Assembly: GCA_015233895.1 (NCBI GenBank)
Contig: JADFXG010000008.1
Span: 62,001-126,000, forward strand
DNA length: 64,000 nt
From: Nitrospirota bacterium
Lineage (GTDB): Bacteria; Nitrospirota; Thermodesulfovibrionia; Thermodesulfovibrionales; Magnetobacteriaceae
Direction: 5' to 3'
Positions 57,062 through 57,962 of the stretch are shown here, in pieces. Position 1 is the stretch's first letter, and each line of letters starts with the position of its first letter. The translations under genes and the position numbers were made by a program. Below the pieces are notes generated by a model that made no database searches, was not told the DNA's origin, and worked only from the letters and a program-made list of their open reading frames with translations.

Positions 57062-57376
57062 ATGAAGAGATTTCGGGTTGTGTTTCTGTTAAGTTTTGTG
57101 GTGCTAATGTTTTCCACACTTTTGTATGCACAAAATATTGGAAACGGAAAAGCTCTGTTTAATGACACAAAATTAGGTGGAGGCAGTACCGGGAAAAGCT
57201 GTAATTCCTGTCATCCTGCCGGTAAAGGCATTAAACCTGAAACTACAAATTCAACGCGGCTTGAGGATATTGTTAACGGTTGTATAACAGGACCACTGGC
57301 TGGTACAGCATTACAAAAAGATTCCCAGCAGATGAAAGATATTGTAGCGTATATCAAATCTATTGTGAAAAAATAA
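57062..57376 (+). CDS. Periplasmic class I c-type cytochrome, small
   Basis: This 104-residue protein has a signal peptide (about 1-24, ending LLYAQ). The single heme motif is CNSCH within GGSTGKSCNSCHPAGKG. A distal Met may be in the QQMKDIVAYIKSIV helix that ends the fold. It would carry electrons in the periplasm. It is the first gene of an operon with a rhodanese that seems to contain selenocysteine, suggesting a periplasmic sulfur redox function. Confidence 0.9.
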   Translation: MKRFRVVFLLSFVVLMFSTLLYAQNIGNGKALFNDTKLGGGSTGKSCNSCHPAGKGIKPETTNSTRLEDIVNGCITGPLAGTALQKDSQQMKDIVAYIKSIVKK

Positions 57377-57415
57377 CATATCAGCCAAAAGTTTGATTTA
57401 ACAAAGGAGGGACTT

Positions 57416-57814
57416 ATGAAAAAGTGGGTTTTAGTTTTCTTTTTTATAGCTTATGCTATGATGGTTATAGTTCCGGCCTATGGTGAGGATGCACCAAGAC
57501 TTACAATTGATGAGCTTAAAGCAAAGTTAGGCTCTCCCGATGTTGTTGTAATAGATGTACGCGTACAGGGTGCATATAATAACAGCAAAATGAAGATAAA
57601 AGGGGCAGTCAGGGAAAATCCAGCTCTGTTTGGTCAATGGTCGCAAAAATATCCAAAGGACAAAACTCTGGTGCTTTATTGTACCTGACACAATGAAGCG
57701 ACAAGTGCCAGTTTGGCACAAGAGTTGTTAAAACTCGGTTACACTAAAGTATATGCGCTCAAAGGCGGATGGAACGAATGGGAAAATGCAAAGTACCCTA
57801 CCGAGCCTAAATGA
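57416..57814 (+). CDS. Exported rhodanese-like protein with in-frame TGA (probable selenoprotein)
   Basis: Read through the TGA at 57686-57688 the gene encodes 132 residues: a signal peptide (about 1-24), the rhodanese start LTIDELKAKLGSPDVVVIDVR, KGAVRENPALFG, and the active-site loop LVLYCT-U-HNEATSASLAQEL, then VYALKGGWNEWENAKYP and stop TGA. The frame stays open and family-like on both sides of the TGA. Known relatives have Cys or Sec at or near this site, so Sec at residue 91 is likely. A hairpin with stem GTGCCA/TGGCAC begins 16 bases after the TGA (57705-57719), as in bacterial SECIS elements. AAGGAGGG precedes the start. No SelABC machinery is in the window. Confidence 0.8.
57686..57719 (+). 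promoter_or_regulatory. Candidate bacterial SECIS element
   Basis: TGA at 57686 followed 16 bases later by a perfect 6-base-pair stem, GTGCCA (57705-57710) and TGGCAC (57714-57719), with apical loop GTT. The spacing from TGA to the loop (about 22 bases) and the G-U in the loop fit bSECIS rules. Confidence 0.55.
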
Positions 57815-57864
57815 TTTGATACTGGGTTGAGACCGTTGCGAAATCCTCAGAACTGAGAAGGAGT

Positions 57865-57888
57865 ATTTTCCAATTAAGGAAAATTTTT
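57865..57888 (+). terminator. Weak candidate terminator of the cytochrome/rhodanese operon
   Basis: The stem ATTTTCC (57865-57871) and GGAAAAT (57878-57884) is followed by TTTTT. Low GC, so its strength is doubtful. Confidence 0.35.
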
Positions 57889-57962
57889 GATTTACCTGTC
57901 TTTAATTGCAATAGTTACAAATTAATCGGACAACAGGTTAAAATAACTCCATTATAAAGAAG

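Follow-up and report, generated by a model that had tools for sequence, protein, structure and literature searches.

Selenocysteine-containing rhodaneses with a CxU motif have previously been catalogued as a predicted family, listed under NF041203 as 'Rhodanese-like domain-containing protein form 3' with one Sec in a 2026 review (PMC13188914), and as the predicted CxU form 2 of COG0607 (PMC9312934). In NCBIfam the same entry is the equivalog rhodanese_LYCAU, a 'rhodanese-related (seleno)protein'. For the accompanying RNA element, the bSECIS model allows a loop of 3-9 nt with a G within its first two positions, a stem of 4-16 bp, a distance of 16-37 nt from the UGA and a minimum free energy (MFE) of at most -7.5 kcal/mol (PMC13188914). 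Here we analysed a window of 64,000 nucleotides from a Nitrospirota bacterium, a relative of magnetotactic Nitrospirota, and found that one of its genes is, on all testable features, a further member of this already catalogued family and a first-hand record from its lineage. The encoded protein matches NF041203 over its whole length (E 4e-52, residues 9-132, curated cut-off 115 bits), with a C-x-U motif, one Sec and the signal peptide region inside the match, although it reads LYCTU where the family name has LYCAU. It shares its fold, catalytic position and six-residue loop with GlpE, PspE and the F. tularensis protein 6mxv (Z 14.9 for 1gmx, 6mxv), but differs from all three in having Sec for the catalytic Cys and an additional Cys two residues earlier. 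The rhodanese/DsbD fusion-like selenoprotein TsoB (NF045694) likewise combines a rhodanese domain with Sec; however, the match is weak (34 bits, far under the 805-bit cut-off) and the architecture differs. We put a probability of about 0.95 on the reading that the product is a selenoprotein of the NF041203 family, an exported single-domain rhodanese in which UGA would be decoded as Sec.

Translation of the window gives 132 codons and a stop (TGA 57812-57814), with the TGA of the YCTU motif (57677-57688) as sole interruption; across it the protein reads YCT-U-HNEATSA...VYALKGGWNEW. An RBS-like AGGAGG lies at 57405-57410, ahead of the start codon. The initial annotation had described an exported rhodanese whose frame runs cleanly over this TGA and places Sec at the active-site position, and our analysis bears it out: there is one internal TGA, the PF00581 match extends across it (residues 30-124, with C placed at the TGA), and the codon corresponds in alignment to the Cys that ordinary rhodaneses use for catalysis. 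Export is predicted from a Sec-type signal peptide recognised by eye at the N-terminus.

Table 1. Coordinates of the rhodanese gene, its elements and its upstream neighbour in the window.
Feature	Position	Strand	Details
Rhodanese selenoprotein gene	57416..57814	+	132 aa with Sec91; NF041203 175.2 bits, PF00581 65.5 bits
Predicted signal peptide MKKWVLVFFFIAYAMMVIVPAYG	57416..57484	+	by eye: positively charged N-terminus, hydrophobic core, cleavage at AYG
Cys89 codon, first residue of C-x-U motif	57680..57682	+	Cys or TGA in 46/46 aligned homologues
TGA, predicted Sec91	57686..57688	+	aligns with catalytic Cys of 6mxv (C-GGGFR-S) and Cys of CxC homologues L103-L107
Candidate SECIS hairpin GTGCCA-GTT-TGGCAC	57705..57719	+	6 bp, GU opening loop, 22 nt from UGA
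Small exported monohaem cytochrome c (CNSCH)	57062..57376	+	39 nt upstream of rhodanese gene

Readthrough of the UGA is argued for by four independent lines of evidence: Sec machinery, homology, coding constraint past the TGA, and the SECIS. A search for selA, selB, selC and selD had been proposed with the initial annotation, and the host genome (3.71 Mb, 65 contigs, 100% complete) contains all four: SelA (605 bits), SelB (362.5 bits, above cut-off), a tRNA-Sec (anticodon tca, UCA; 70.7 bits) and SelD (315 bits), which carries an in-frame TGA of its own near the N-terminus, at the usual place. SelB with Sec-tRNA(UCA) would thus be expected to decode the UGA at 57686-57688 as Sec, directed by the hairpin at 57705-57719. 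Across the phylum, a match above the NF041203 cut-off was present in 27 of 396 genomes and each such match contains TGA, at the same codon wherever the motif was read residue by residue. These genomes nearly all encode selA (26/27, as against 147/369 others), an association with a Fisher p of 2.4e-9 that is indicative only, related genomes not being independent. The one exception, G078, has the NF041203 match and no selA at the threshold used; conversely, G001, a 99% complete genome of the window's genus, is without the rhodanese gene.

Homologues carrying TGA at the same codon were found across the phylum and in one desulfobacterial metagenome-assembled genome (MAG). An alignment with Cys homologues, another check suggested at the outset, showed Cys aligned to the TGA in the CxC homologues, and, with TGA read as C, no residue other than Cys or Sec occurs at positions 89 and 91 among the 46 aligned sequences. 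Codons after the TGA change predominantly at synonymous sites, both between the window and L026 (Sd/S 0.41, Nd/N 0.11) and between L062 and L063 (Sd/S 0.80, Nd/N 0.06); synonymous change exceeded nonsynonymous change past the TGA in 11/11 pairs compared, with the same pattern before it. Over the 42 codons that begin with the TGA, the window and its closest species (L024) differ at four codons synonymously and at two nonsynonymously. Among plasmid matches we found only remote ordinary rhodaneses (<40% identity), and a scan of genome contigs returned three loci only. Candidatus Magnetominusculus xianensis appears to belong to the window organism's family: its rhodanese (L052, contig LNQR01000030.1) is identical in sequence to that of G011, and this makes the window's source a relative of magnetotactic Nitrospirota.

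The hairpin downstream of the TGA consists of a perfect 6-bp stem (57705-57710 paired with 57714-57719) closing a GTT loop (57711-57713), the stem beginning 16 nt and the apical loop 22 nt past the TGA, just as the initial annotation had it. With 3 nt in the loop, G then U at its opening and an MFE of -12.5 to -13.7 kcal/mol, it falls within the published bSECIS limits; in a re-implementation of that model made for this analysis, 41 of 50 distinct TGA-bearing members, window included, satisfy it. Against dinucleotide shuffles the fold reached z ~ -2 when the folded stretch began at the TGA and -1.3 when it was longer, and such a single-sequence comparison is weak evidence, not decisive alone; the comparison across homologues provides strong evidence. 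An Rfam search of 57400-57900 gave chance matches only.

The stem as sole proof of a SECIS was rejected: because the stem is kept at the same place in all four CxC genes examined (L103, L104, L105 and L107), and is partly explained by the S-A-x-x-A protein motif after Sec, which already favours a GC-rich stem, it does not suffice by itself, and we therefore used the loop GU as the test. As control, synonymous codons were drawn at random 1000 times from family codon use weighted by each gene's GC3. Stem pairs numbered 247 against an expected 182 (sd 7). The loop GU, formed by codon 8 after Sec (NGT), was observed in 46/50 sequences, compared with 4.0 expected (sd 1.9, maximum 12), and spans Arg, Ser and Gly codons; in the same four CxC genes it is absent (0/4), which separates them from the TGA-bearing group. 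Conservation so far above synonymous chance, together with absence from these CxC genes, places the loop GU under selection at the RNA level, beyond the protein; the 50 sequences are related, and the excess does not represent as many independent events.

These data bear directly on whether the TGA at 57686-57688 is a true stop, with a 90-residue fragment as functional product or a pseudogene as the outcome. Ordinary gene calling does terminate there. However, the same codon is TGA across families and phyla, relatives carry Cys in its place, the codons beyond it are under constraint, and a protein ending there would be left without catalytic loop, helix or GGW motif. A norm of truncated 90-residue homologues, which the initial annotation had named as a refuting finding, was not seen. 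The truncated-protein reading is refuted by the comparison, and we regard a true stop as very improbable. Still less credible is decoding as another residue, such as Trp through codon reassignment or near-cognate readthrough: a single sequence would not distinguish a frame left open with TGA as Trp, but other genes in the window terminate at TGA or TAA as usual, the genome has the full Sec machinery alongside a SECIS under selection, and the aligned residue in relatives is Cys, never Trp. Reading the UGA as Sec removes the doubt over a codon that routine gene prediction would accept as a stop, truncating the protein ahead of its catalytic loop. For a family previously only predicted, the TGA in every examined match above cut-off and the RNA-level signature in the loop add quantitative support.

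The structure model (pLDDT 90.9) is a rhodanese domain, with rhodanese structures scoring Z 13-17 (3tp9 17.1, GlpE 1gmx 14.9). When aligned to 6mxv, in a gap-free region with the usual loop length, Sec91 coincides with the Cys of CGGGFRS. This placement, together with the invariance of Cys or Sec at positions 89 and 91, suggests a C-x-U pair in which Sec91 likely takes the place of the nucleophile and Cys89 acts as the resolving residue. A periplasmic selenolate would then react with sulfane sulfur, or with an oxidised thiol, giving a Se-S intermediate that Cys89 would resolve via a selenenylsulfide that a periplasmic reductant could reset. Such selenium-based sulfur chemistry in the periplasm is plausible. 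The rhodanese fold could instead be a scaffold for a redox enzyme that performs thiol/selenol-disulfide exchange through C-x-U and no sulfurtransfer; the pair is invariant, ordinary rhodaneses lack the additional Cys/Sec that lies two residues ahead of the canonical one, and U-x-U variants exist, but Sec sits at the canonical catalytic position in a six-residue loop of ordinary length, and we hold this option as tentative, at somewhat below even odds. We consider it unlikely that the rhodanese and the neighbouring cytochrome c form a sulfur-oxidising pair in the periplasm. The two genes lie close together on one strand, are possibly co-transcribed and are adjacent in the closest same-genus MAG (L054) too, and the cytochrome scores weakly as SoxA/TsdA-like (26.0 bits, just below the 27-bit cut-off); against this, the neighbour is missing in other species of the family examined.

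At the other flanked loci, among them those of G002 (same genus) and of G005, G008 and G011 (same family), the cytochrome c is not beside the rhodanese. The coupling to a secreted cytochrome c put forward in the initial annotation is thus not general, being shared only by the window and L054, a MAG apparently conspecific with G003, which belongs to the window's genus. The linkage looks lineage-specific, and gene order as an argument for a functional partner was rejected past the closest relative. At two other loci, L053 (the desulfobacterial MAG) and L133 (G283), a membrane-like protein of ~430 residues is encoded directly upstream of the CxU rhodanese, with a similar start in each (MSPESLTILGNYMGQAG and MSPDTLILVGNSAGGA, respectively); it is a possible partner of the CxU rhodanese.

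In 13 relatives (L038, L078, L081, L083-L089 and L091-L093) both positions of the motif are TGA, six nucleotides apart, and the genomes concerned nearly all have selA. One hairpin, at ~27 nt from the first UGA and ~21 nt from the second, would serve both codons; four or five of these U-x-U genes (L086-L089, L081) fall outside the simple hairpin model. Three of the eight U-x-U relatives tested (L078, L083 and L085) pass the NF041203 cut-off. U-x-U is not among the forms given for the family entry (PMC13188914), and our literature search found no publication on U-x-U and rhodanese together, though one may exist; in that search the identifier NF041203 came up in a single paper. The U-x-U relatives are likely double-Sec rhodaneses, and would allow a direct test of two close UGAs sharing one SECIS and of diselenide rhodanese function. 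In the window's genome, no second PF00581 gene was found at E 0.001 in 3.7 Mb, a search that very divergent rhodaneses could escape, and the Sec form would be the organism's only recognisable rhodanese; if so, periplasmic sulfane-sulfur handling there would depend on selenium. On balance we lean towards both propositions together: a double-Sec, diselenide-capable form within the family, and selenium-dependent sulfane-sulfur handling in the periplasm of the window's organism.

Three further arrangements were noted among relatives. In G072, G102 and G377 (L064, L066 and L071), the CxU rhodanese occurs in two tandem TGA-bearing copies, with a hairpin for each. A degenerate paralogue in G283 (L090, C1:1062723-1063007) reads YUARPSEKTS; the first motif position is a TGA and the second an Arg, one more TGA is present, and the gene is perhaps a decaying copy. 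Two more distant rhodaneses, L099 and L100, carry the TGA deeper in the loop (FYCRGAGUGLS and FYCRGTAUGLS), a different Sec position.
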